64,000 nucleotides of DNA. Source: Candidatus Obscuribacterales bacterium (GTDB taxonomy: Bacteria > Cyanobacteriota > Vampirovibrionia > Obscuribacterales > Obscuribacteraceae). Shown piece by piece: positions 30,641 through 45,890 of the stretch. The DNA is taken from the NCBI GenBank assembly GCA_020050685.1, contig JAGVKG010000064.1, forward strand, positions 1 to 64,000. Reading direction: 5' to 3'. The notes below the pieces were generated by a model. The model did no database searches and was not told the DNA's origin. It saw nothing but the letters and a program-made list of their open reading frames with translations. The stretch's first letter is position 1. Each line of letters begins with the position of its first letter. The translations under genes and the position numbers were made by a program.

Positions 30641-30783
30641 AGTTATCGGCCATTTACCCGGCAGTAAAATCGCCGCCCATTCTTTATTGTAGTGACAGGG
30701 CGCAAACATATATCGGACTAAACATGCCGAGCCACGCCACCCGATCTAATTCCCGACCATATATTAGGATGAGGAAATCTCTG

Positions 30784-33543
30784 ATGAACCACCCGCGCAA
30801 ATCTCGTTTTTTCAATGCCAGCCTGGGTCTGGCATTATCTTTATTGGCTTTGCCTATGCCGACCTTAGCTGCCGGCTTTATTGCCATAGATCCAATTGCC
30901 GGCATGCCGGTAGTCACGCAACCGCATGTCCGACCGACCATACCCCGCGGGGCGCCGATGCCGATACCGCCAACCACGTCGCATACTGGCAAACAGCCGC
31001 CCTTGCTTAAAGGTATGGTCTCATTTGGCCTGAGCCTGCAAGCGGAAACTATTTCGGTTGAAATTAACGACCAGGTGGCAAAAACTCATATTTGCGAAGT
31101 GTTTCAAAACGATACAGATCGTAACTTGGCAGGTACTTATTTATTTCCTCTGCCTGAAGATACAACCTTCAGTTCATTTTCTTTACATATTGATGGCAAA
31201 CCAGTGGAAGGAAAAATTCTTGAGGCGCAAGAAGCCCGTTCGCAGTATGAAGAAATTGTCCGGCGCATGGTCGACCCTGGTCTATTAGAGTATGCCGATT
31301 ACAAAACCGTGCGGGCGCGCATATTTCCCATTCCTGCTCACGGTGTGAAGAAGGTGGAGCTGGAATACACGCAAATTTTGCGCGGGCAAGATGGCATGCT
31401 CAAGTATCAATTTCCCATGCGAGCGGCTGGGCAATCTGCCATGGCCGACGAAGTGCAAGTGAATGTGAAATTGGCCAGCAAGCAGGGCTTGCGAACAATT
31501 TGGTCGCCTTCGCACACAATTTCTGCCAAGCGAGAAAATGAGCATCAAGCCAAGATTTCTTATTCGGGCAAAGATACGATTCTCGATAAGGACTTTGTTC
31601 TTTATTACAGTATTTCGGACAAAGATGTGGCAGCAAATTTGCTTACTCACAAGTTGTCCGATACTGATGGCTATTTTCTTTTGACATTGACGCCACCACT
31701 TGCGGCTAAGCAAATTATCGCCAAGGACATTGTTTTAGTTGCCGATACTTCCGGATCCATGGAAGGCGAAAAGCTGGTGCAATGCAAGCGTGCGCTTAAG
31801 TACGTGGTAAATGGCTTGAACGCCGAAGATCATTTCAATCTTGTTCACTTCAATACGGATGTGGAAAGATTCCGCAAGGAAATGGTCGGGGCAACGCCGG
31901 ATAATAAGAAATCTTGCGATGCTTTTATTGAACAATTGGAAGCAACTGGTGGCACGAATATCTCGGATGCTTTGCATATGGCGCATCAGATGCTTTCTGC
32001 CAGCAATCAACGCCCAACTTACATAATTTTGATTACCGATGGTCAACCGACAGTGGGTGAAACTTCAGTGGCTGGACTAATCAAATCTATTTCTGCCAAT
32101 TCGCCCGTGCGAATTTTTGATTTTGGCGTTGGTTATGACGTGAACACCGAATTGCTGAACAAATTATCTGATGCGCACCATGGTGTTGCACAATATGTTG
32201 AGCCGGATGAAAACTTGGAGACAGTGCTTTCGCAGTTCTACAAGAAGATCAAAGCGCCTGTGCTTTCCAATGTCAGTATCGATTTTTCCGGCATCGAAAT
32301 CAAAGATATGTATCCACGGGAAGTGAAAGATCTTTTTGCCGGCTCGCAGGTCTTGTTGATGGGCCGCTTCCGTGGTGATGGTAAAGCCACTCTCAATTTA
32401 AATGGTGTGATCAATGGTGTGGCGAAGAAGTTTTCTTATCCTTTGACCTTTCCCAAAGACGAGGCTGATCATGGCTATCTATGCCGGTTGTGGGCGATGC
32501 GCCGCATTGGACATTTGACGGAAGCGGCCCAAGCAAATCAAAACAATCGTGAGATTGTTGATGAGATTGTCGCTCTCTCGAAAAAATACGGCATCATTTC
32601 TGCTTACACTTCGTTTCTTGTCACTGATCCAAGTGAAAATCATCGCTTAGCACAAGCACCAGCTCCTTCACCAGTTGCCTTTGCACCGGGGGGTGGATTT
32701 GGTAGTTTCTTTGGTCGGACGCGTAAGCGTGGCCCGATTGGAATTGATCCGTCTGTTCCGCGCTCTTCTACAGGCGGTGGTGGTGGCAGTCGTACATCTG
32801 CACCTGCTCTGGTAAGAGCTGGTGGCGGTGGCAGACCAAATGTTGCTGCTCAGCCTGATACGGATTTCGGACCTTACATGGCCGATCTGCAAAGACGCGT
32901 GAAGCGTGCTTGGTTCCCACCACAAGGCAATGAAAGCAAGAAAGTAGCAGTTGTTTTCAAAGTAAAACGTGATGGCAGTATTTCCAATTTGCGCTTAGAT
33001 CGCACCTCTGGTCTGGCAGCCGCTGACCAGGCGGCGTTGAAAGCGGTCGAGAATGCTGCACCATTTCGCCCGCTTCCACAAGGAGCACCAAATGATGTAG
33101 ACATCCAATACACTTATGACTACAACCAATTTGCTGGTGCTGGTCGAGGAAGTTTCCGTGCTGTGTCTGGCGCTGACCAAAGTCAAAGAGTCGGTCAAGC
33201 CATTGCTCAAAGTCGATTGGAAAGCTCTGGCAAAAATGCTGTAACACTTTCCAAGGAACTGCTCGCACTTAAGTCTTCGGAAGTTGCCGAAAGCAAGGAT
33301 GCGAAGTCGGGAGTAAAAGTAGTTGCCGACAAGACTTTCTACTTGGTCGAAGGCTTCTGGACTGACAGCGCTTACGAAGAAGGAAAATCACCGAAAGCCG
33401 AAATTGTTGAATTCGGCAGCAAGAGATATTTTGACCTGGCGAAGAGCATTGCTGGCCTGTCCAAATATCTTTCCTGTGGCAAGCAAGTGATTGTCATCTT
33501 TAATGGACATTGCTACAAAATAGTGGAAAGAATTACCACTTAA
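30784..33543 (+). CDS. VIT-VWA protein with C-terminal TonB-like domain
   Basis: A 919-residue exported protein. GAGG lies 9 bases before the ATG at 30784; two ATGs lie further upstream in frame. Signal peptide: ASLGLALSLLALPMPTLA. A VIT domain follows (about 75-205, with FPLPEDTTFSSFSLHIDGK). The von Willebrand A domain starts near residue 315 with the metal-site DTSGSMEGEK, then FNTDVERF and LITDGQPTVGE. A Gly/Ser/Arg linker (about 635-690) leads to a TonB C-terminal domain (about 695-785; LQRRVKRAWFPPQ, VVFKVKRDGSISNLRLDRTSG, APFRPLP). A last domain of about 130 residues is unrecognised. VIT-VWA proteins bind partners or extracellular matrix; a TonB tail is unusual. Confidence 0.88.
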   Translation: MNHPRKSRFFNASLGLALSLLALPMPTLAAGFIAIDPIAGMPVVTQPHVRPTIPRGAPMPIPPTTSHTGKQPPLLKGMVSFGLSLQAETISVEINDQVAKTHICEVFQNDTDRNLAGTYLFPLPEDTTFSSFSLHIDGKPVEGKILEAQEARSQYEEIVRRMVDPGLLEYADYKTVRARIFPIPAHGVKKVELEYTQILRGQDGMLKYQFPMRAAGQSAMADEVQVNVKLASKQGLRTIWSPSHTISAKRENEHQAKISYSGKDTILDKDFVLYYSISDKDVAANLLTHKLSDTDGYFLLTLTPPLAAKQIIAKDIVLVADTSGSMEGEKLVQCKRALKYVVNGLNAEDHFNLVHFNTDVERFRKEMVGATPDNKKSCDAFIEQLEATGGTNISDALHMAHQMLSASNQRPTYIILITDGQPTVGETSVAGLIKSISANSPVRIFDFGVGYDVNTELLNKLSDAHHGVAQYVEPDENLETVLSQFYKKIKAPVLSNVSIDFSGIEIKDMYPREVKDLFAGSQVLLMGRFRGDGKATLNLNGVINGVAKKFSYPLTFPKDEADHGYLCRLWAMRRIGHLTEAAQANQNNREIVDEIVALSKKYGIISAYTSFLVTDPSENHRLAQAPAPSPVAFAPGGGFGSFFGRTRKRGPIGIDPSVPRSSTGGGGGSRTSAPALVRAGGGGRPNVAAQPDTDFGPYMADLQRRVKRAWFPPQGNESKKVAVVFKVKRDGSISNLRLDRTSGLAAADQAALKAVENAAPFRPLPQGAPNDVDIQYTYDYNQFAGAGRGSFRAVSGADQSQRVGQAIAQSRLESSGKNAVTLSKELLALKSSEVAESKDAKSGVKVVADKTFYLVEGFWTDSAYEEGKSPKAEIVEFGSKRYFDLAKSIAGLSKYLSCGKQVIVIFNGHCYKIVERITT

Positions 33544-34322: not shown

Positions 34323-36287
34323 ATGTCTACAGTCATGTCCACTAGCTGCCAACCAGTATTGACGCTTTTGGAAAGTATTTCCGGCCCAGGCGACCTCAAG
34401 CGGCTTTCGAACCAGCAGCTTGCCAAGCTGGCTGAGGAAATCAGACAAGCAATCGTCCAGTCTGTTGCTAAAACTGGTGGACATCTGGCGTCCAATCTCG
34501 GCATAGTGGAAATAACCCTGGCTTTGCACCGCGTATTTGATAGCCCGCAGGACAAACTGATTTGGGATGTCGGTCACCAAGCATATGTTCACAAAATGCT
34601 GACCGGGCGCCGCGATAACTTTTCCACTCTCAGGCAGTACAAGGGGCTTTCTGGTTTTATCAATCCGTTTGAGAGTGAGCACGATTCATTTTTGGCCGGA
34701 CACAGTTCGACTTCGATTTCCTTGGCAGCAGGTATGGCAATTGCCCGCGACCACAAGGGTGAAAATCACAAAGTGGTGGCAGTAATTGGTGATGGTGGAC
34801 TGACAGGCGGCATGGCGCTTGAAGCAATCAATCACCTTGGTCACATCCAAAAAGATGTGATTATCATTCTTAACGATAACGAAATGTCCATTTCGGAAAA
34901 TGTTGGCGGCTTCTCGCAATACATGAAGCGTATTAAGGAAACATTTTTCTATCAAGATATCAAAGCCAAGATCGATCAGATTGAAGGTCAACTTGATCAG
35001 AAGTTGGGTCCTGGCGTTTGGCAGCTGATCTCAGCAGTTAAAGAGCAAGCCAAACAGCGTTTTGATACGCCGGGAATTGTTTTTGAAAAACTTGGGATCA
35101 ACTACACAGGACCAATTGATGGTCATGATGTTGGGGCAATGATCGATGTCCTCAGCAAGATCAAAGATCAACACGCGCCGCAAATTCTGCATGTGATCAC
35201 GCAGAAGGGCAAAGGTTACGCACCTGCCGAAGAAGATGCAATCAAGTATCATGGCGTGTCTGCATTCAGCCTGGAAAAAATTGAACCTTTGGTGGCACCA
35301 AAACCAAAAGCCAAGACTTATTCGGATGTGTTTACGGAAACTTTGGTCGAGCTTGCGGCAATTGCACCGGAAGTGGTGGCTTTGACTCCCGCTACGGCGG
35401 AAGGCTCGGGCCTTGTGAAATTTGGCAAGGCTTATCCAGACAGATTTTTCGATGTGGGTATTTGCGAACAGCACGCAGTAACCATGGCTGCCGGCATGGC
35501 AAAAGAAGGCTTGACGCCGGTTGTTTCTATTTATTCAACTTTCTTGCAGCGAGCAATTGATCAAGTTATCCATGATGTGGCAATTTTGAATTTGCCTGTG
35601 ATATTTGGTATCGACCGCGGTGGTTTGGTGGAAGATGGCGAAACGCACCAAGGTGTTTTCGACATTGCCTTTTTGCGCAATTTGCCGAATTTCACGGTGG
35701 TGGCACCAAAAGACGCACAAGAGTTGCGTAATATATTGTATACGGCAGTTAAAGAGCGCAAAGGACCGCTAGCTGTCCGCTTCCCGCGCGACAAAGCTGT
35801 CGACGCTGAGTCCTTTGCACCGTTTGAATTGATCGATTACACGAAGTGGGAAATGTTACATAATGGCGCGTTTAATTGCAAAATTGACAGCAAGGCCAAT
35901 AACGTAGTTCTTCTGGCATATGGCGCCATGGTTGAAGCAGCCAAACAAGCAAGAATAATTTTGCAAGAAAAAGGAATCGAGATTACTCTGATTAATGCCC
36001 GCTCTGCTAAACCACTTGATAGTGAAATGTTGGGTAAGCTGATTGCTGACCCATCGCTTACACTTGTAACCTTGGAAGAAGGCTGTGTTAGTGGTGGTTT
36101 TGGTTCTGCAGTGCTTGAATTTGCGGCACAAAGCAAAATGACGCGACCAACTTGTGGACAATCGAGTATTTATTGCTTGGGCGTCAACGATCAATTTGTT
36201 GAGCATGGCGCCAGACAAATCTTGCTCGATCTAAATGGATTGAGCCCGCAAAAAATTGCTGAGTTTGTTGCCTGCTGTCGGAAATAG
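34323..36287 (+). CDS. dxs: 1-deoxy-D-xylulose-5-phosphate synthase
   Basis: This 654-residue thiamine-diphosphate enzyme joins pyruvate and glyceraldehyde-3-phosphate, the first step of the MEP isoprenoid pathway. Features are TGGHLASNLGIVEITLALHRVFD, the catalytic His of WDVGHQAYVHKMLTGR, the ThDP-binding VIGDGGLTGGMALEA...NDNEMSIS pair, CEQHAVTMAAGMA with the general-base Glu region, and GIDRGGLVEDGETHQGVFD. Length is typical (620-660). AAGG precedes the start at 10 bases; a second ATG at 34335 is possible. It is convergent with recR, with a terminator-like hairpin between. Confidence 0.96.
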   Translation: MSTVMSTSCQPVLTLLESISGPGDLKRLSNQQLAKLAEEIRQAIVQSVAKTGGHLASNLGIVEITLALHRVFDSPQDKLIWDVGHQAYVHKMLTGRRDNFSTLRQYKGLSGFINPFESEHDSFLAGHSSTSISLAAGMAIARDHKGENHKVVAVIGDGGLTGGMALEAINHLGHIQKDVIIILNDNEMSISENVGGFSQYMKRIKETFFYQDIKAKIDQIEGQLDQKLGPGVWQLISAVKEQAKQRFDTPGIVFEKLGINYTGPIDGHDVGAMIDVLSKIKDQHAPQILHVITQKGKGYAPAEEDAIKYHGVSAFSLEKIEPLVAPKPKAKTYSDVFTETLVELAAIAPEVVALTPATAEGSGLVKFGKAYPDRFFDVGICEQHAVTMAAGMAKEGLTPVVSIYSTFLQRAIDQVIHDVAILNLPVIFGIDRGGLVEDGETHQGVFDIAFLRNLPNFTVVAPKDAQELRNILYTAVKERKGPLAVRFPRDKAVDAESFAPFELIDYTKWEMLHNGAFNCKIDSKANNVVLLAYGAMVEAAKQARIILQEKGIEITLINARSAKPLDSEMLGKLIADPSLTLVTLEEGCVSGGFGSAVLEFAAQSKMTRPTCGQSSIYCLGVNDQFVEHGARQILLDLNGLSPQKIAEFVACCRK

Positions 36288-36369: not shown

Positions 36370-36966
36370 TTAAATTTCTCTGCGGCCTTCGAGAGCGCGC
36401 GCCAGGGTCACGTCGTCGGCGTATTCCAAGTCGGAGCCAACTGGCAAACCAAAGGCAATGCGTGTCATTGTGATACCGACTGGCTTGAGCAAATGACTCA
36501 AATACAAAACAGTTGCATCACCTTCGATGGTTGGATTAATTGCCAAAATAATTTCGTGAACGTCTTCCTCGCCAATTCTGCCCAATAATTCTTTGACGGA
36601 AAGCTGCTCTGGACCGCGCCCTTCTAATGGTGAGATCAGTCCTGTAAGCACATGGTAAAGACCTTTGTATTCACCAGTGCGCTCAAGGGCAATCACGTCA
36701 CGCGTATCGGCAACAACGCAAATAAGTTTGCGATCGCGCTTTGCATTGGTGCAAATTTCACAAGGGTCCAGTTCGGACAAATTGAAACACTGGCTGCAGT
36801 GCCTGACCTTTTCTTTGGCTTCCAAAATGGTATCAGCAAAAATATTCACTTCCTCAGGCGAAAGCGAGAGCATGTGAAAAGCCATTCGCTGCGCCGACTT
36901 CGGACCAACGCCCGGAAACTTCTGGAACTGTTCAATCAATTTTGCTAACGGCCTTGTGAATTGCAC
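36370..36966 (-). CDS. recR: Recombination protein RecR
   Basis: This 198-residue protein loads RecA with RecO/RecF at gaps. It has an N-terminal HhH (LIEQFQKFPGVGPKSAQRMAFHML), the zinc finger CSQCFNLSELDPCEICTNAKRD, and a TOPRIM domain (LICVVADTRDVIALERTGEYKGLYHVL, ILAINPTIEGDATVLYL). Length matches the family exactly. The start codon is GTG. It lies downstream of ybaB on the same strand, the conserved ybaB-recR pairing, with an 86-base spacer holding a dispersed repeat. Confidence 0.96.
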   Translation of the reverse strand: MQFTRPLAKLIEQFQKFPGVGPKSAQRMAFHMLSLSPEEVNIFADTILEAKEKVRHCSQCFNLSELDPCEICTNAKRDRKLICVVADTRDVIALERTGEYKGLYHVLTGLISPLEGRGPEQLSVKELLGRIGEEDVHEIILAINPTIEGDATVLYLSHLLKPVGITMTRIAFGLPVGSDLEYADDVTLARALEGRREI

Positions 36967-37052: not shown

Positions 37053-37382
37053 TTAAAACAAGCCTGGTGGCAAGTTCATGCCCTTAGTGATTGAGCCGGT
37101 CTTCTCTTGCATCAAAGCTTGCGATTTCTGCGAAGCATCTTTGATTGCTGCCAGCACCAAATCTTCCAAAGTCTCTACATCTTGCGGGTCAACAGCCTGC
37201 GGATCTATTTTTACAGCGGTAAATTCGGAAAGCCCTGTGCAAGTGATTTTCACTGCACCACCACCGGCGGTTCCTTCGATAGCTGTCTTGCCCAGCTCTT
37301 GCTGCATGCTTGCCATGTCCTGCTGCATCTTTTGCATGGACTTTTGTGCATCCTTCAAAAGCTTACCGATATCTTGCTGCAT
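37053..37382 (-). CDS. ybaB: YbaB/EbfC nucleoid-associated protein
   Basis: A 109-residue DNA-binding protein: an N-terminal Met/Gln-rich helix (IGKLLKDAQKSMQKMQQDMASMQQELGK), a central strand GGAVKITCTGLSEFTAVKIDPQAV, and the C-terminal helix LEDLVLAAIKDASQKSQALMQEK. This is the classic tweezer-fold YbaB. AGAGGAG lies 6 bases before the ATG at 37382, which overrules the longer open frame to 37436. It is co-directional with recR. Confidence 0.93.
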   Translation of the reverse strand: MQQDIGKLLKDAQKSMQKMQQDMASMQQELGKTAIEGTAGGGAVKITCTGLSEFTAVKIDPQAVDPQDVETLEDLVLAAIKDASQKSQALMQEKTGSITKGMNLPPGLF

Positions 37383-37603
37383 GACGTACTCCTCTGGTTT
37401 ACAGGCTTTTGGAAATAAATTTGCACCAGATCGCAATCAATCTGGACGTGTTCTAAATTATCTCAGATTGTGCGCCCCACTGGTAAATATTCCTTAAGTA
37501 TATGAAGTAAATTGATTATAGACATGTGGTTTTGCTTTACTCTTGTCACAGAACCTAGTTCATGGAATCCCCCACTGGTGAGCTTTGAGCAAGGAGCCAC
37601 GAT

Positions 37604-37888
37604 ATGAGCGAAGAAACAGCGCAGGGCTATCAAACCAATTTTGCGCCACAAGACTATGCGGCAGCCGCCACAAATGAGAGTTCATCTCAAGAGCAAGGCG
37701 AGCCACAGCCTAAGAGTGCTCCAAAGGATGTAAATATGGACAGTGATTTTTGTGATGAAGGCCAAGAAAGTCGCGCCAAGATTTGGGAAGTAGCGGTCGC
37801 TGCCTTCAAACGGTTCGTTCTCTTTATTTCTTTCGGTCCGGGAGTTGTTGGATTTCTATGCTTACTTGGAAAGATATTGAAGCGCTAA
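37604..37888 (+). CDS. Small protein with C-terminal membrane segment
   Basis: A 94-residue protein with AAGGAG before its ATG. The N-terminal 60 residues are polar and acidic (Gln, Glu, Ser), and the last 30 form a membrane segment (FKRFVLFISFGPGVVGFLCLLGKIL) ending in Lys-Arg. No family recognised. It runs directly into the acyltransferase pair that follows, with overlap or 14-base spacing depending on the next start, so it is likely the first gene of a three-gene operon. Confidence 0.65.
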   Translation: MSEETAQGYQTNFAPQDYAAAATNESSSQEQGEPQPKSAPKDVNMDSDFCDEGQESRAKIWEVAVAAFKRFVLFISFGPGVVGFLCLLGKILKR

Positions 37889-38802
37889 GAAATCAGGATC
37901 CAATGGAGAACCTGGCCCGCCGCAATCCTAGTTATTACGCTAGATATGCCGGGCAGGAAGACGAATTTGGCTTCAGTTTGGAAACATATGCCAAGTGGTT
38001 GCCGGTCTTCAGTTTTCTTTACGAAGACTATTTCAAAGTGAAAGTGCACGGGATAGAAAATATCCCGGGGCAAGGTCGTGGTCTCCTGATTGGTAACCAC
38101 TCGGGACTTCTGCCGCTCGATGGCGGGATGATCACAATGGCGATGTGCCATCTGCATCCTGAACCGCGTCGCGTTCGTTACCTTGTGACCGACTGGTTTT
38201 TCTCACTGCCATTTGTGCGCGATTGGATGATGGAAACCGGCCAAGTGCGTGCCACGTTGGAAAATGCCCAAAAACTTTTGGCTAAGGGTGAACTGGTTGG
38301 CATTTATCCGGAAGGATTGCGCGGCGTTGGTAAAACATTCCGCGAGCGCTATCGCTTGATCGACTTCCATCCGGGATTTGTGCAATTGGCCATTGCCACT
38401 CAAAGTCCAATTATTCCTGTGGCAACAATTGGTGGCGACGAAATTTATCCGAACTTCATCAATGTCAAGCAGTTGTCGCAAGCTTTCAAAATGCCGTTTT
38501 TCCCAATTACGCCATTTTTCCCCTGGCTGCCGTTCCCAATTAACGTTATGCCACTGCCGGTTAAGTGGTTCATTGACATTGATAAGCCAATTGATCTTGG
38601 TTATCCTGCCGAAAAGGCATCCGATCGTCAACTGGTTTTGCGCATTGCGCGCGAAATTCAATACGATATTCAGAGCAAACTGAATGCACTTTTGCGCGAA
38701 CGCAAATCGCTCTTTACGGAAGTCGATGGGGATGAGCCGCAAGCTACGCCGGAAGAAACCAAGGAAAAACTGGAAGCCTTGATTCACGAGGTGCGCAATT
38801 GA
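37858..38802 (+). CDS. Lysophospholipid acyltransferase family protein (active type)
   Basis: A 314-residue PlsC-like enzyme that would transfer an acyl chain to a lysolipid at the inner membrane. Motif I reads LIGNHSGLLPLDGGM (His and Asp separated by six residues, a spacing I recall from a subgroup of this family). Motif III is IYPEGLRGVGKTFRERYRL, and ITPFFPWLPFPINVMPLPVKW lies near residue 215. The start is uncertain: the ATG at 37858 overlaps the upstream gene by 31 bases, while the ATG at 37903 has AGGA before it. Its stop overlaps the TTG start of the next gene. The substrate is unknown. Confidence 0.85.
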   Translation: MLTWKDIEALRNQDPMENLARRNPSYYARYAGQEDEFGFSLETYAKWLPVFSFLYEDYFKVKVHGIENIPGQGRGLLIGNHSGLLPLDGGMITMAMCHLHPEPRRVRYLVTDWFFSLPFVRDWMMETGQVRATLENAQKLLAKGELVGIYPEGLRGVGKTFRERYRLIDFHPGFVQLAIATQSPIIPVATIGGDEIYPNFINVKQLSQAFKMPFFPITPFFPWLPFPINVMPLPVKWFIDIDKPIDLGYPAEKASDRQLVLRIAREIQYDIQSKLNALLRERKSLFTEVDGDEPQATPEETKEKLEALIHEVRN

Positions 38803-39626
38803 CCACGATGAATTCTTTTAACCACACTTACCAGGAATATGTTGAGTCTGCGGATTTGCAGGACAATCCTTTTGGTTATGACTTGGATGTTGTGGAAAAG
38901 TTGGAGCCATACTTGTGCTTTCTTTTCCGTTATTGGTGGCGAGTTGATATCACCGGTTTGCAATATTTGCCGGATAGTGGACCGGCATTGATTGTTGGGA
39001 ATTCTGGATCGCTTGCGCCGTGGCCTGGCATGATGTTGCTTTATGCCTTGATGGCGCGCAAGGGTGGTTCGCGGCAAGTGAGCATTCTTGCCGATATGGA
39101 TTGGGTGCAAAGTCAAAAGTTGTATCGAGTTCTCACGGCACTTGGTTTTGTACAGTGGTCGCCGGAAAATGCTAAGAGACTTTTTGAAGCCGGACATATC
39201 GTTGCCACGTTTCCTGAAGGAATGGCAGGATTGGCTAAGCCATTTTCTGAGCGATATCGTCTGCGCGAATTTGATTGGACACGCTTCTTGCCGGCGGTGG
39301 AAGAAAATGTGCCAATTTACCCGATGTCAACAATCGGTTGTGATGAAGCGCTGCCTGTCTTGGGCAACATCGATTGGCTTGCAGATTTTCTCGATATGCC
39401 GGCTTTTCCGATTACACCATTTTTCCCTTGGTTGCCTTTCCCGGCCAGTTTGATGTCACTGCCTGTGCGCTGGCATATGCGCATTCTCAAACGTCGTCAG
39501 TTCACTGTCAAAGCCAGTCATGCGGATATCATCGCCATGACCAGACAGCAAGCAAAGTTTACTGAAGGCGAAATTCAGGCCGAACTTAATCGCTTGCTCC
39601 GCCAACGAATAATCAAGGCGAAATAG
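38799..39626 (+). CDS. Acyltransferase paralogue lacking the catalytic His/Asp motif
   Basis: A 275-residue paralogue of the preceding gene, with shared blocks PxxGMAGLAKPFSERYRL (motif III, Glu kept) and AFPITPFFPWLPFPASLMSLPVRW. Motif I, however, reads VGNSGSLAPWPGMM: the His is absent and the Asp position is Pro. The His-Asp pair is the catalytic base system of PlsC enzymes, so this copy is predicted inactive or altered. It starts with TTG, with GAGG 7 bases upstream, and the TGA of the first paralogue overlaps it, so the two are translated together. A role as a non-catalytic partner is inference. Confidence 0.82.
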   Translation: MTTMNSFNHTYQEYVESADLQDNPFGYDLDVVEKLEPYLCFLFRYWWRVDITGLQYLPDSGPALIVGNSGSLAPWPGMMLLYALMARKGGSRQVSILADMDWVQSQKLYRVLTALGFVQWSPENAKRLFEAGHIVATFPEGMAGLAKPFSERYRLREFDWTRFLPAVEENVPIYPMSTIGCDEALPVLGNIDWLADFLDMPAFPITPFFPWLPFPASLMSLPVRWHMRILKRRQFTVKASHADIIAMTRQQAKFTEGEIQAELNRLLRQRIIKAK

Positions 39627-39647: not shown

Positions 39648-39749
39648 TGTCATCCTGAGGAGGAGCAGCGCGATGACGAAGGACCTCTCAAGTCCCAAGG
39701 TGCGTTTGCGTTGAATCATGAGGGATCCTTCGCTTTGCTCAGGATGACA
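39648..39749. repeat. Long imperfect inverted repeat (TGTCATCCTGAGG type)
   Basis: About 102 bases begin TGTCATCCTGAGG and end CTCAGGATGACA, with GACGAAGGA/TCCTTCGCTTTGCTC arms inside, forming a long hairpin. This ATCCTGAG...CTCAGGAT style of intergenic repeat is one I know from many unrelated bacteria. It lies downstream of the acyltransferase pair. Confidence 0.8.
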
Positions 39750-39932
39750 ATTTCCGTGGCTTCCCGCAGTGCCAATCACACCGGGTACGATTTCGTATAC
39801 TTGCTGCAGATCTGTTCGATATACGCAAGACATGTGATTTTCTTGCAAATTAAATTTCATCTGTTATTAATATATTCAGCTTAGTTTTTTTATACGATTA
39901 CAGCTGTATTTACTAACTCGTTGGCGAGCCAG
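39750..39932. other. Leader region of the efflux operon
   Basis: An AT-rich region before tolC. TTGCAA at about 39843 followed 16-17 bases later by TATTAA/ATTAAT could be a promoter, but the match is modest. No regulator gene or clear operator was seen. Confidence 0.35.
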
Positions 39933-41402
39933 ATGCGGCTTGAAAAAAATTTGCTCAGCATTTTATTGGCGACAGTGATGTTGCTTACGAATGTTTGTTC
40001 GGCATTTGCAGCCGAGCGCGGCTTTTTATTGCCTGAGATCAAATACCAACCGCAGCCCACGCAGCAAACATTCACAATCGGCGAGGCTGTCGATCTGGCT
40101 ATCCGCAATTTCCCGACAATTGCCAATGCGCGTTTTCGTTTGTACGCAGCACGGGCTGGAGTAACTTTAGCTAAGACAGCTTATTTGCCAAACATGAACT
40201 TGGTGGCACAAGAGTATCTCAGCACGCATAACGTGGTAACGGGTACTGTGCTTTCGCAAGCCAGCACTTTGGACGCTATTCCGATTCAATCGGGCGCACC
40301 ATCAACGAGTACAAGTTTTTCACCAATTTGGGGAAGCAACCAAGCTGCTAACTTCAACTGGTTGCTTTATGACTTTGGCTTGCGTGGTGCCAATGTGCAG
40401 TTAGCGCGTGCTGATACCAAACTGGCTGCTAACAACGTCAGGTTGACTGAGCTGGATGTTGCTTTTGCCTGTGCTGATGCTTTCTTGACTACGGTGGCTG
40501 CGCAACAAACAGTGGTGGCACAAGAATCAGTGCTTGATCGCATGCGGGCAGCACAGGTGCAAGTCAACACTTTGGTTAACGAAGGACTGCGTCCGGGCGT
40601 GGATGCATCGCGCGCGGATTTTGATGTTGCGGATGCTCGCATTGGCGTGATTCAAGCCGAGCGCAATACTGAACTTGCCAAAGTCGATTTGGCTGAACGC
40701 ATGGGTATTGCCGGCAGCCATGTGGAGGTAATTGCCGGACCACTCATCCGTAGGCCTGTTGGAAGAGTGAAAGTCGGCCAAACAAATTTTGAAACGCATC
40801 CTTTGACCCAAGTAAATCAAGCCGCAGTACGCACCTGGGCAGCGAAGGTGCACGTTCTGGATAGAACTTGGTATCCGCACTTGTGGTGGAACTCGGCCAT
40901 GCTTGGGCGTGGATCAAGTATTGGTGGCGAAGTGCCGCCGGTAGCCGGTGGATTTTTGCCGCAGGTGGCAAACTGGGTTGCTGGTATGCAAGTTTCATTT
41001 CCCGTCATGGATATTTTTGCCATTAAGGCAGAGCGCAAGGCGGCATTAGCAAATGAATATGCGGAACGGGCAAATTTGGATCTGGCAATTCAGATACTGG
41101 AACAAAAAGATGCGCGGGCGCGCGTACTTTTGACGGAAGCCAGAAAAATTGCCGATGAGACACCAAGGCTTGTGCAAGCCGCACGCGAAAATGAAATCAA
41201 AATTTTAGAACGTTATAAAGCTGGGCTAACCAACATGGTGGCAGTTGCCGATGCAGAAAGACTGCTTGCTAAAGCAGAAGTGGAAGACGAGCTGGCTCAA
41301 ATCGAAGTCTGGCGATCTATTTTGGCGCTTGGTTATGTGCAAGGTGATTTGAAGCCGTTTCTCACTTTAGTAGCCTACGCAGAGGGAGCCCAGCGCCAAT
41401 GA
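39933..41402 (+). CDS. TolC-family outer membrane efflux protein
   Basis: A 489-residue outer-membrane channel of a tripartite pump. Signal peptide: LLSILLATVMLLTNVCSAFAA. Two OEP repeats follow: the first with TIGEAVDLAIRNFPTIANARFRLYAARAGVTLAKTAYLPN, the second around GVDASRADFDVADARIGVIQAERNTELAKVDLAERMGI and the long helix near residues 370-460. The frame is open to a TTG at 39921, but the ATG at 39933 gives the better signal peptide. Its stop codon overlaps the RND start in an ATGA. Confidence 0.92.
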   Translation: MRLEKNLLSILLATVMLLTNVCSAFAAERGFLLPEIKYQPQPTQQTFTIGEAVDLAIRNFPTIANARFRLYAARAGVTLAKTAYLPNMNLVAQEYLSTHNVVTGTVLSQASTLDAIPIQSGAPSTSTSFSPIWGSNQAANFNWLLYDFGLRGANVQLARADTKLAANNVRLTELDVAFACADAFLTTVAAQQTVVAQESVLDRMRAAQVQVNTLVNEGLRPGVDASRADFDVADARIGVIQAERNTELAKVDLAERMGIAGSHVEVIAGPLIRRPVGRVKVGQTNFETHPLTQVNQAAVRTWAAKVHVLDRTWYPHLWWNSAMLGRGSSIGGEVPPVAGGFLPQVANWVAGMQVSFPVMDIFAIKAERKAALANEYAERANLDLAIQILEQKDARARVLLTEARKIADETPRLVQAARENEIKILERYKAGLTNMVAVADAERLLAKAEVEDELAQIEVWRSILALGYVQGDLKPFLTLVAYAEGAQRQ

Positions 41403-44400
41403 ACTTTGTCGGCGTCGCACTAAGAAGACCAATCACTGTACTTATGTCAGTGATCAGCGTCATATTGATTGCTGTTTTGGCCTTGACCAGTATGAAGCAG
41501 GATATCTTCCCGAACATGAACATACCTTGCATTTATGTTGTGCAGGGTTATGGTGGCATGGCGCCGGATCAGATGGAAGGTTATCTCGTTTCTACATACG
41601 AGCTTTACTTCTTGTATGTGCCTGGCATCGAGCATATGGAATCTAAATCGATTCAAAATGTCTCGGTAATGAAAATCTATTTCCAGCCAGATACCGATAT
41701 GTCTTCGGCCATGTCGGCTCTGGTGGCAATGTGCAATCGCGCCACAAGTGTTATGCCTAAGGGCACACTCAATCCCTTCATCATGCGTTTCGATCCCGGT
41801 AGCTTGCCGGTTGGACAATTGGTGCTGTCGTCGGAAACTAAGTCGGTCAAAGAATTAGAAGACCTTGCCTATGTTCGCGTTCGACCGCAACTGGGAACAT
41901 TGCCAGGGGCAGAGGCACCACCACCATTTGGTGGCAACATCCGCACAATTGTAATTAACGCCAATGCAGATAAGCTTCGCCAATACAATATTTCCGGTGA
42001 CGAAATTGTCAATGCGGTTGCGGAAGCCAACTTTATTTGTCCTGCCGGTAATGTGCGCACTGATAAGTTGTTGCGTATTGCGCCGGTTAATACCGACTTG
42101 CCAGACATTCACGATCTTGATTATTACCCAATTCGTTCCGGTCCGGGCCCGCAGATTTTCATTCGTGATATTGGCACTGTGGAAGACTCGGAAGATATTT
42201 TGGCCGGCTATGCGCTTTTCCAAGGCAGGCGAACTGTTTACTTGCCAGTGGTGAAAAGATCAGATGCTTCAACAATGTCTGTTGTGCAAGCCGTGCACGA
42301 TGCCCTGCCGGAGATGCAAGCTGTCTTGCCGCCAGACGTGAAGATTAGTTATGAATTTGACCAATCCAAATATGTGCGCGATGCAATTAACGACGTCTTG
42401 TTCGAAGGACTGATGGGCACGGTCTTACCGGGATTGATGATTCTCTTGTTTTTGCGTGACTTGAGAGCAACATCAATTGTTGTGACAACAATTCCTTGTT
42501 CGTTGCTGACTGCCTCTGTTTTGCTTTGGGCAAGTGGACAATCAATCAATATTCAGACCTTAGGTGGACTAGCTCTGGCAATTGGTATTTTGGTTGACGA
42601 GGCGACAGTCGTAATTGAAAACGTGCACACGCATATGAGTCGTGGTGAACCAATCAGTCGAGCGGTTTACGAAGCAGCACGAGAAACAATGGTGCCAAGA
42701 TTGCTCGCCATGCTTGCGGTTATCACTGTCTTTGTGCCGTCGTTTTTCATGACCGGCATAACCAAGAGTTTGTTCGTGCCACTTTCGCTTGCTGTCGGCT
42801 TTACCATGTTCGCCTCATTTTTGATGTCAAACACGCTTGTGCCTGTGATGGCGGTTTGGTTGCTCAAGCCTGAAAAGCAGGAGGAAAAAGAAGGGTTCAT
42901 AGATCACTTGCGTGAACGTCTCGGCAAAACAGTGAGCTTCCTTTTGGAGCGACGCAAGCTTGTCATTACTTGTTACCTTGGTGGCACCATGGTGGCAGTT
43001 GCAGTTTTGTATAGCATGATTGGGCAAGAAATGTTCCCAGACCCACATTCAAGTGAGTTCCGTATTCGTATATCAGCACCAACCGGCACGCGCGTGGAAG
43101 TGTTGGAAGACGTCGTACATAAGACTACTGCCATTGTTAAGAAGGACGCTGGTCCCGGTAATTTTGATAAGACGCTCGGTTATGCCGGACAGCAACCACC
43201 AATGTTCCCGATTAACTCCGCCTATCTTTGGACGTCCGGCCCGCATCAAGCAGTTATCGATTACCGCTTGAAAGAAAGCTCTGGTATTGATGTGGTGCAA
43301 TTCAAAGAGATATTGCGTGCCGATTTGCATAAGGCAATGCCTAATGTGGAATTTTCTTTTGAGCCGGGTGATTTGGTCAGCCAAATCATGAACCTGGGAT
43401 CACCAACACCGATTTCGGTGATGGTGCGTGGACACAGTTTGCTTGCCGACAGATTGTTTGCCGAAAAGGTGAGAAGAGAAATTGCCAAGATCCCTTATCT
43501 TCGCGATCTGCAATGGGGTCAGCCGCAAGAATATCCTACTTGCGATATTAAGATCGATAGAGAATTAGCCGGGCAGCTTGGTATCACGCCATTGCAAATT
43601 GGTCGTTCGCTTTTGCCCGCCTTTTTCTCCAGCCGTTTCATGCAACTTTCTTTCTGGAAGGACGCCGAAAGCGGCATGTCGTATCAGGTGCAGGTACAAG
43701 TACCGCAAGATCAAATTAAATCAAAAGACGATATCGAGCAATTCCCGGCGATGAAAAATCCGAACCAGCAGCATCCTTTGATTGGCGACATTGCTGATGT
43801 GGAATACGGCACGACCATCGGTGAATACGATCGTTACAACATGATGCGCATGGTCTCGCTGACAGCAAACATTCACGGAAAAGATTTGGGCAATGTTGGT
43901 AAAGAAGTGGAAGCCGCGGTTAAGCGTGCTGGTACTCCGCCTACTGGTGTCTTTGTTGATGTGAAGGGACAAGTGCCCTTGCTTACAGATACGTTCACAC
44001 ATTTGTTCATTGGATTGGCACTGGCCGTTGTGGCGATCTTCTTGATGCTGTCGGCCTACTTCCAAGCACCACGCATGGTGATGGTTGTGCTTTCAACCGT
44101 GCCGGCAATTTTGACTGGCGTTTTGGGAATGTTATTTATCACCGGCACAACTTTGAATGTGCAGTCTTTCATGGGCGCGATCATGGTTATTGGTGTCGGT
44201 GTGTCCAACGCAATTTTGCTGGTTGTCTTTGCCGAAAAATCCAGGCGTGATGGCATGCCGGTGGAAAAGGCAGCAGTGGTGGCAGCCGAATCTAGAATGC
44301 GGCCAATTCTGATGACTTCAATTGCTATGATTGCCGGCATGGTGCCGATGGCAATTAGCCAAGGCGTAAGCGCACCATTGGGCAGAGCCGTGATTGGTGG

Positions 44401-44515
44401 CTTGGCATTTTCCACTGCCACTGTTTTGACCATTTTGCCAATTGTATTTGTGATAATTCAGTCTGGTGCTGCCTTGGCTTCGCCATCGTTGCATCCGGAA
44501 GATCGGGGAGAGTAG
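41399..44515 (+). CDS. RND-family efflux permease
   Basis: A 1038-residue inner-membrane proton-driven transporter of normal RND length, with the N-terminal VGVALRRPITVLMSVISVILIAV and two large periplasmic loops. TM4 reads LAIGILVDEATVVIENVHTHMSRGEP: the first acidic residue of the AcrB-type DD pair is kept and the second is Glu. TM10 has VIGVGVSNAILLVVFAEKSRR, with Ser where AcrB has the relay Lys. It is translated from ATGA coupling with tolC and followed by the adaptor. The export substrate cannot be read; the family covers drugs, lipids and metals. Confidence 0.94.
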   Translation: MNFVGVALRRPITVLMSVISVILIAVLALTSMKQDIFPNMNIPCIYVVQGYGGMAPDQMEGYLVSTYELYFLYVPGIEHMESKSIQNVSVMKIYFQPDTDMSSAMSALVAMCNRATSVMPKGTLNPFIMRFDPGSLPVGQLVLSSETKSVKELEDLAYVRVRPQLGTLPGAEAPPPFGGNIRTIVINANADKLRQYNISGDEIVNAVAEANFICPAGNVRTDKLLRIAPVNTDLPDIHDLDYYPIRSGPGPQIFIRDIGTVEDSEDILAGYALFQGRRTVYLPVVKRSDASTMSVVQAVHDALPEMQAVLPPDVKISYEFDQSKYVRDAINDVLFEGLMGTVLPGLMILLFLRDLRATSIVVTTIPCSLLTASVLLWASGQSINIQTLGGLALAIGILVDEATVVIENVHTHMSRGEPISRAVYEAARETMVPRLLAMLAVITVFVPSFFMTGITKSLFVPLSLAVGFTMFASFLMSNTLVPVMAVWLLKPEKQEEKEGFIDHLRERLGKTVSFLLERRKLVITCYLGGTMVAVAVLYSMIGQEMFPDPHSSEFRIRISAPTGTRVEVLEDVVHKTTAIVKKDAGPGNFDKTLGYAGQQPPMFPINSAYLWTSGPHQAVIDYRLKESSGIDVVQFKEILRADLHKAMPNVEFSFEPGDLVSQIMNLGSPTPISVMVRGHSLLADRLFAEKVRREIAKIPYLRDLQWGQPQEYPTCDIKIDRELAGQLGITPLQIGRSLLPAFFSSRFMQLSFWKDAESGMSYQVQVQVPQDQIKSKDDIEQFPAMKNPNQQHPLIGDIADVEYGTTIGEYDRYNMMRMVSLTANIHGKDLGNVGKEVEAAVKRAGTPPTGVFVDVKGQVPLLTDTFTHLFIGLALAVVAIFLMLSAYFQAPRMVMVVLSTVPAILTGVLGMLFITGTTLNVQSFMGAIMVIGVGVSNAILLVVFAEKSRRDGMPVEKAAVVAAESRMRPILMTSIAMIAGMVPMAISQGVSAPLGRAVIGGLAFSTATVLTILPIVFVIIQSGAALASPSLHPEDRGE

Positions 44516-44525
44516 GGAGATAATT

Positions 44526-45890
44526 GTGAAACTAACGGGACTATCGGAAGGTTTGCCTAAACCATTGCCCAAGAATCTGCTTTTGATTCTGGCAGTGTTA
44601 GCAGCCGCCATAATTGCTTTTGTGGTGTACAAAGTATTCTTTGAGCACAAGCCAGAAGCGCCGGTTTCGCAAGCTCTGAGTTTGCCGGTTGTGCGAGTGC
44701 AAAAGGCAATTTTGTTCCGCGAAGATCAAATTCCTGGTGAGATTCAGGCATATCAGGATGTTTTGATTTATCCTAAAGTTCCTGGATTCATCAAGTGGAT
44801 TGGTGTGGACCGTGGCTCGATTGTTCATGAAGGCGAGCCGATGGTCACCATGTACGCGCCTGAGTATTTAGCCAGAAAAGACGAAGCGCAAGCAATAGTT
44901 TCGCAAGCCAGAGCCCAATTGGCAGAAGGTGAATCAAAACTGGCTGCCGCACGCGCTCGCTGGCGGGAAGCAAATGCCCAGTTGCTTGGTGATGATTCTA
45001 CTTATCAAAGAGTCAAGGCTGCTTCATTGGTGCCAGGAGTGGTGGCAACCAACGAAGTAATTGTGCTTGGACAGCAAGTAGATCAAGATCGCCAAGCCGT
45101 TTCTACCTGGGAAAGCAATGTTAAAGCTGCTGAACATCTAGTGGTTGCCCTGCGTGATAATTTGAAAGCTGATACAAAGTCACTGGATAATTTCAGCGAC
45201 TTTGCCTCATATTTGCAAATCACGGCGCCATTTGATGGTTACATAACTGAGCGCAACATGCACGTTGGCAGTTTCGTCGGGCCATTGGGCACGGGTGCGT
45301 ATCCGGCAATTTGCCGCATTCAGCAATTGGATCTTTTGCGTATCGTTGCACCAGTGCCGGAACGTGATACCAATGGTGTGGTAATTGGTGCGCCGGTTGA
45401 TTTTTCTGTTTCTACTTTTCCTGATCAAAGATTTACCGGCACCGTTGCCAGGTTAGGAAATTATTTGGACAAAGCCACGCGAACCATGCCAGTGGAATTG
45501 AACTACAACAATCCGCCCGATAAGCCAGACAGGCGCATTTTGCCTGGAATGTTTTGCAAAGTTTATTGGCCGACAAGACGCACCGAGCCAACACTTTTTA
45601 TTCCGCAAACCGCTGTTGAATCAACACCTTTGGACACATTTGTTTGCCGCCTTGGGAAAGATAACAAAGTGGAACGCGTGAGCGTAACCAAAGGTCAAAT
45701 CATGGGCTCCATGATCGAAGTGTTCGGCAACATTCACGAAGGCGATTTGGTATTAGAAACCTCGACAGAAGAAATTGAACCAGGCACGGAAGTCCAACCA
45801 ATCATGGTTGAGAAAGACATCGAAGAAGAAAAGCGCAAGGAAGAACATCCCAAACGCAAATTGCACGGCGGTCTTCCCGCGCGTAGTTGA
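44526..45890 (+). CDS. RND efflux periplasmic adaptor (MFP/HlyD-like)
   Basis: A 454-residue membrane-fusion protein. GGGAG lies 6 bases before a GTG at 44526. An N-terminal membrane anchor (LLLILAVLAAAIIAFVVYKVF) precedes the lipoyl half (IYPKVPGFIKWIGVDRGSIVHEGEPMVTM), a long coiled-coil hairpin (about 110-220, ARAQLAEGESKLAAARARWREA), the second lipoyl half (ITAPFDGYITERNMHVGSFVG), and the beta-barrel domain (FPDQRFTGTVARLGNYLDKATRTMPVEL). The last residues are highly charged. Order tolC-RND-MFP differs from the more usual MFP-RND-tolC. Confidence 0.93.
   Translation: MKLTGLSEGLPKPLPKNLLLILAVLAAAIIAFVVYKVFFEHKPEAPVSQALSLPVVRVQKAILFREDQIPGEIQAYQDVLIYPKVPGFIKWIGVDRGSIVHEGEPMVTMYAPEYLARKDEAQAIVSQARAQLAEGESKLAAARARWREANAQLLGDDSTYQRVKAASLVPGVVATNEVIVLGQQVDQDRQAVSTWESNVKAAEHLVVALRDNLKADTKSLDNFSDFASYLQITAPFDGYITERNMHVGSFVGPLGTGAYPAICRIQQLDLLRIVAPVPERDTNGVVIGAPVDFSVSTFPDQRFTGTVARLGNYLDKATRTMPVELNYNNPPDKPDRRILPGMFCKVYWPTRRTEPTLFIPQTAVESTPLDTFVCRLGKDNKVERVSVTKGQIMGSMIEVFGNIHEGDLVLETSTEEIEPGTEVQPIMVEKDIEEEKRKEEHPKRKLHGGLPARS

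Follow-up and report, generated by a model that had tools for sequence, protein, structure and literature searches.

A three-gene module of the Obscuribacterales combines a small membrane protein, an LPLAT/PlsC-like acyltransferase and an acyltransferase paralogue without the catalytic dyad

We conclude that three consecutive genes, here called S, A and B, constitute a lineage-specific module of the Obscuribacterales in which B is the non-catalytic partner. The genes were read in a window of 64,000 nucleotides (positions 1 to 64,000 of contig JAGVKG010000064.1, assembly GCA_020050685.1, Candidatus Obscuribacterales bacterium). The setting is an uncultured order of non-photosynthetic cyanobacteria, in which the gene for a lipid-modifying enzyme nearly always lies next to those for a very small membrane protein and for a dead, long-conserved version of the enzyme.

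Layout of the locus and choice of start sites

S, A and B are three plus-strand open reading frames that fill the interval 37604–39626, with A and B adjacent (Table 1). The scores of A and B against PF01553 were 69.1 and 28.3 bits, both above the Pfam cut-off of 23, and the tandem PlsC-like pair described in the first-pass annotation was thereby confirmed. The small protein with a C-terminal hydrophobic helix that was said to precede the pair was recovered as well. Its gene S ends at 37888 and has two candidate starts, at 37604 (94 aa) or at the ATG 37736 (50 aa). The product of the second (MDSDFCDEG...) fits the family N-terminus MxDFD, and AAGGA lies upstream of this ATG.

Table 1. Coordinates of the S-A-B genes, their motifs and the conserved neighbours in the window
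Feature	Position	Strand	Description
Gene S	37604..37888	+	Small protein; C-terminal hydrophobic segment FVLFISFGPGVVGFLCLLGKILKR
Gene A	37858..38802	+	LPLAT/PlsC-like acyltransferase, 314 aa
Gene B	38799 (TTG) or 38808 (ATG, by homology)..39626	+	A paralogue, dead active site; 275 aa from 38799
A catalytic motif	38098..38121	+	Codons H81 to D88 (HSGLLPLD)
B degenerate motif	39003..39026	+	Codons S69 to P76 (SGSLAPWP)
ybaB homologue	37053..37394	-	Divergent neighbour; conserved-locus marker, outside the S-A-B module
recR	36370-36966		Divergent from S-A-B, beside ybaB
dxs	34323-36287		Upstream neighbour of the conserved locus

A starts inside S, with an overlap of 31 nt in the window and in 20 of 28 relatives; in two relatives the overlap is 34 nt. 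For B, two starts were considered. The TTG overlaps the stop codon of A by 4 nt and is preceded by GAGG 7 nt upstream. The ATG begins a protein (MNSFNHTY) that matches the family N-terminus MxxFxxxY, and leaves a gap of 5 nt after A. The start of B is therefore ambiguous, the ATG appearing to fit the family better and the TTG having the better-placed GAGG, and the stop/TTG overlap claimed earlier holds for the TTG start only. The spacing of A and B varies among relatives, with extremes of 53 nt of overlap and 61 nt of gap; in 12 of 32 cases the two genes share 1 or 4 nt. Given this variation, translational coupling of A and B is frequent but not universal. Equal amounts of both products had been deduced from the overlap; this does not follow.

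Several further observations were made around the module. Positions 30724–33543 encode a 939-aa secreted-looking protein, in which a von Willebrand A-like region (VADTSGSM) and a TonB-like C-terminal region were recognized by eye; many relatives have a homologue of this protein upstream of dxs. On the other side, TolC-type, RND-type and membrane-fusion-type genes follow in a row 3′ of B (39921–45890). Directly 3′ of B lies an inverted repeat (39648–39749) whose arms contain TGTCATCCTGAG. This 12-mer has 93 copies in the genome against 0 in the control reading, often as inverted pairs approximately 70–100 nt apart. Copy number and inverted pairing thus identify a genome-wide palindromic repeat family.

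Active site and conservation of A and B

Motif I of A reads GNHSGLLPLDG with the catalytic residues in the spacing H81-x6-D88, and the PEG of motif III is kept. H81, D88 and PEG were invariant in the alignment of 34 A proteins; A thus carries the dyad of an HX4-6D acyltransferase. Every A orthologue from relatives (Obscuribacterales MAGs) has GNHSGxxPxD. In addition to PF01553, A matched the Diacylglycerol acyltransferase family PF03982 (DAGAT) with 29.9 bits (cut-off 22). This match is weaker than that to PF01553 and indicates kinship, not DGAT activity. A does not reach the cut-off of the PlsC model TIGR00530 (36.1 bits versus 102.95) and has H-x6-D, not H-x4-D; the only solved relative found by profile search was the PlsC structure 5kym (E 4e-5). 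A role of A as the housekeeping PlsC is unsupported, since at least two strong canonical HX4D PlsC-type genes are present elsewhere in the same genome.

The intact motif extends to A-type proteins outside the module. Lone A-type paralogues read GNH[ST]GxxPxD wherever the motif was covered. Many Obscuribacterales carry one or two such extra paralogues with intact His and Asp (L066-L087); in the genome of the window no A-type paralogue was found besides A and B. The scan gave 38 further A-type loci, 37 of them outside the order (Chloroflexota, Dormibacterota, Acidobacteriota, Actinomycetota), with His and Asp intact wherever the motif was read. In the aligned outgroup A-type proteins, His and Asp were each kept in 26 of 27.

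B aligns with A at 37% identity over 251 residues. Motif I of B reads GNSGSLAPWPG, and its NSGSLAPWP lies without a gap under NHSGLLPLD of A, which places Ser at the position of His and Pro at that of Asp. PEG, ERYRL and FPITPFFPWLPFP are common to both proteins. The loss of both catalytic residues and the retention of the motif III region, as reported in the first-pass annotation, are therefore borne out by the alignment. A misaligned motif was considered and rejected, because the alignment is gap-free and because NHSGVLPWDG is the reading in many outgroup proteins; PWP in B thus corresponds to PWD with D changed to P. B still belongs to the family, as all 35 of 35 B proteins match PF01553 at E<=0.01.

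The proposed check of the dyad in B homologues elsewhere gave a clear result. Asp was absent from all 34 full-length B homologues from relatives and His from 33 of them; the exception, L038, reads GNHGSFLPWPG and still lacks Asp. In those 33, the His position holds S, T, Q, N or A. The 42 named loci, examined as a second set, agreed, with loss of the dyad in every B. Since the loss recurs in both sets, it is due neither to chance nor to sequencing error. No column of the B alignment contains a conserved His, hence no general base has migrated. By alignment, B thus lacks the dyad of a catalytically competent HX4-6D acyltransferase. B has also lost the A positions H100, R107, P118, R155, G158, G173, F174 and D256, and has kept PEG and the positions K159, R164 and R166 (A numbering). 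It has invariant or near-invariant residues of its own (K126, F158-D159-W160, E256-G257, R265 and R268), several of which are absent from A, and a specific C-terminal helix, EGEIQAELNRLLR.

In close genome pairs (Nei-Gojobori), dN/dS was 0.02-0.07 for A and 0.00-0.08 for B, so purifying selection acts on B as strongly as on A. A decaying pseudogene is rejected by these values together with the open frames in relatives. The assignment of B as a pseudoenzyme, that is, an enzyme-family homologue without catalytic residues that is maintained by selection, appears well supported by the comparison of sequences.

An AlphaFold2 model of B, calculated with 83 aligned sequences, reached a pLDDT of 93.2 and a pTM of 0.90 and has a predicted LPLAT fold. 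It superimposes on human GPAT1 (8e4y) with Z 16.9 and an rmsd of 3.8 over 247 residues, and on Thermotoga maritima PlsC (5kym) with Z 16.1 and an rmsd of 3.8 over 200 residues. The B profile matched no solved structure by sequence. In the tree, all B proteins group together (SH-aLRT 100), the stem of their clade being long at 1.94 changes per site, and the paired A proteins (support 96) and the lone paralogues (support 98) form clades separate from B. The duplication that gave rise to A and B therefore took place before the two families of the order diverged. The placement of B relative to A and the lone paralogues (support 88) involves a long branch and was given no weight.

Distribution of the module and properties of S

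Homologues in the genome contigs were matched by an alignment-based scan; a single-sequence scan gave no match. Of 53 Obscuribacterales genomes, 47 carry B, two of them as contig-end fragments; in 187 genomes from the other orders of the class it was not found. S was found in 46 of the 53 genomes at the S-A-B locus, with one weak extra match in one genome. The A/B pair is kept across two families and approximately 24 genera, so the question of whether it is conserved beyond this genome was answered in the affirmative. The six genomes without B also lack S and A, and a search for ybaB in these six gave no match. The result was the same in G014, which has just a piece of B at a contig end. This ybaB search had no positive control, and tblastn found ybaB at nearly all other loci. 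As the six genomes also lack a ybaB match, the locus itself is probably unassembled in them, and assembly gaps are likelier than gene loss.

The upstream gene order dxs-recR-ybaB is common to nearly all relatives. The downstream efflux genes (tolC, RND, MFP) are not conserved beside the module. Neither S nor B was found near approximately 20 lone A-type paralogues within the order, nor near the 37 A homologues outside it. Thus, S and B are tied to one specific A. One exception to the gene order was seen at L062 (G037:C26), where S is followed by B across approximately 110 nt with no A in between. Two other contigs of the same genome end in A-type fragments, and either a real translocation of A or a faulty assembly may account for the arrangement.

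S matches no family in Pfam or NCBIfam. Wherever the contig of an examined relative reaches far enough, a homologue of S is found 5′ of A. S belongs to the module as consistently as B does, and its part was undersold in the first-pass annotation. S has one very conserved membrane segment. By the Kyte-Doolittle scale, A and B are without a strongly hydrophobic stretch and S has one, the mean best 19-residue values being 2.04 for S, 1.34 for A and 1.35 for B. The hydrophobic segment of S has basic residues on either side and Gly-Pro-Gly in its middle. Judged by this composition, it could enter the membrane as a hairpin instead of crossing it as a helix.

Proposed function and comparison with known systems

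The maintenance of a dead copy suggests that the role of B is that of a helper or a controlling subunit, not that of an enzyme. We consider it rather probable that A is catalytic, that B is a non-catalytic partner pairing with A, that S is a membrane recruiter and that the three form an order-specific module. A would be the catalytic subunit, in which the His81/Asp88 dyad would activate the acceptor hydroxyl; as for other HX4-6D LPLATs, a thioester would donate the acyl group. B would descend from an ancient duplication; it has lost the dyad and several family-conserved residues but kept the fold. Most likely it pairs with A and activates, stabilizes or positions it, as the prozyme does for AdoMetDC. 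The recruiter would be S, a small peptide inserted in the membrane. A and B lack an obvious membrane helix, and S most likely draws them to the bilayer, the site of the lipid substrate. The stronger version, an obligate heteromeric membrane acyltransferase made of a catalytic LPLAT, a required dead LPLAT and a dedicated membrane peptide, is put forward tentatively, at somewhat less than even chances.

Two weak tests gave no support for the active/inactive complex suggested in the first-pass annotation. A fused A-B AlphaFold model gave a pTM of 0.47 and a pLDDT of 72 with no confident interface, from a shallow alignment of 10 sequences. Its input was the A-B read-through of the in-frame locus L039 and nine others; B-only rows, which MAFFT placed on the A half, were left out. 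In a mirror-tree analysis the partial correlation of A and B was 0.26, not above that of control pairs (recR, ybaB). A physical A-B complex is a plausible hypothesis; the unusual lipid suggested in the first-pass annotation is unsupported.

The absence of a predicted interface would also suit a B that is a soluble lipid- or acyl-carrier-binding protein or a metabolic sensor standing beside A without a stable complex, for example feeding or sensing the substrate or product of A. The retention in B of positions conserved through the family (PEG, K159, R164 and R166) points the same way. However, the near-strict adjacency with S and A and the absence of B beside lone A paralogues fit a subunit better, and we hold a binding or sensing role to be unlikely. 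It is more improbable still that B is catalytically active through other residues, such as the B-specific D159-W160 together with E140. B does have invariant or near-invariant residues of its own, several not present in A, but it has no conserved His and has lost several family-conserved residues, and dyad catalysis is established for the HX4-6D family, whose mechanism needs both His and Asp.

Just as little credence is given to A and B being independent neighbours that share a promoter, their conservation reflecting that of the dxs-recR-ybaB region. The whole region from dxs-recR-ybaB to S-A-B is syntenic and the mirror-tree signal is not specific, as would be expected in that case. In contrast, conservation ends at S-A-B, as tolC, RND and MFP 3′ of B are not conserved; the genes often overlap, and S and B co-occur where the assembly permits. 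The reading of B as non-catalytic partner of A, with S as recruiter, is therefore preferred. If the heteromeric S-A-B architecture is true, it is carried throughout a whole bacterial order. An order-wide pseudo-acyltransferase beside its active twin is a clean and testable case, and the lone A-type paralogues without such a partner, present in many of the same genomes, provide a ready control.

Both A and B resemble the LPLAT/PlsC superfamily (PF01553) in fold and in PEG of motif III, and A also in the His/Asp dyad. PlsC has H-x4-D, whereas A has H-x6-D and B has neither residue (one homologue keeps His). PlsC is, to our knowledge, not known to need a dead paralogue, and we know of no other glycerolipid acyltransferase composed of a catalytic LPLAT, a dead LPLAT and a membrane peptide. 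Another comparison is with the A-like acyltransferases of actinobacteria and Chloroflexales, which are 38-46% identical to A and keep NH[SA]GxxPxDG wherever the motif was read. Unlike A, these genes are solitary, with neither B nor S nearby. In four loci checked (L131, L139, L144 and L146; Chloroflexota, Mycobacterium and Flexivirga) the A-like gene lies just 3′ of a gene for an NAD-dependent epimerase (PF01370). The mycobacterial copies may correspond to Rv0502 of M. tuberculosis. Rv0502 is among seven PlsC homologues in this species and among the four conserved in M. leprae (PMC10593935). Our literature search, limited to open-licence papers, found no PlsC/LPLAT-type pseudoenzyme and nothing on Obscuribacter acyltransferases.

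Among kinases, phosphatases and proteases there are well-known cases in which a dead paralogue controls its active counterpart. FAM20C/FAM20A resembles A/B in that a dead paralogue stands beside an active one, in another enzyme class (reviewed in PMC10211241); the text of this review does not mention an acyltransferase among the active/dead pairs. Human TMEM68/DIESL is an acyltransferase with a His130/Asp136 dyad in complex with TMX1, which restrains it (PMC10482677). Like the proposed module, it joins a dyad acyltransferase to a controlling membrane protein, but TMX1 is not a dead paralogue, and this human system is likened here by working principle, not by homology. In the trypanosomal AdoMetDC/prozyme system (PMC5201418), again of another enzyme class, a dead paralogue is kept by selection together with the active one, as is the case for B and A.
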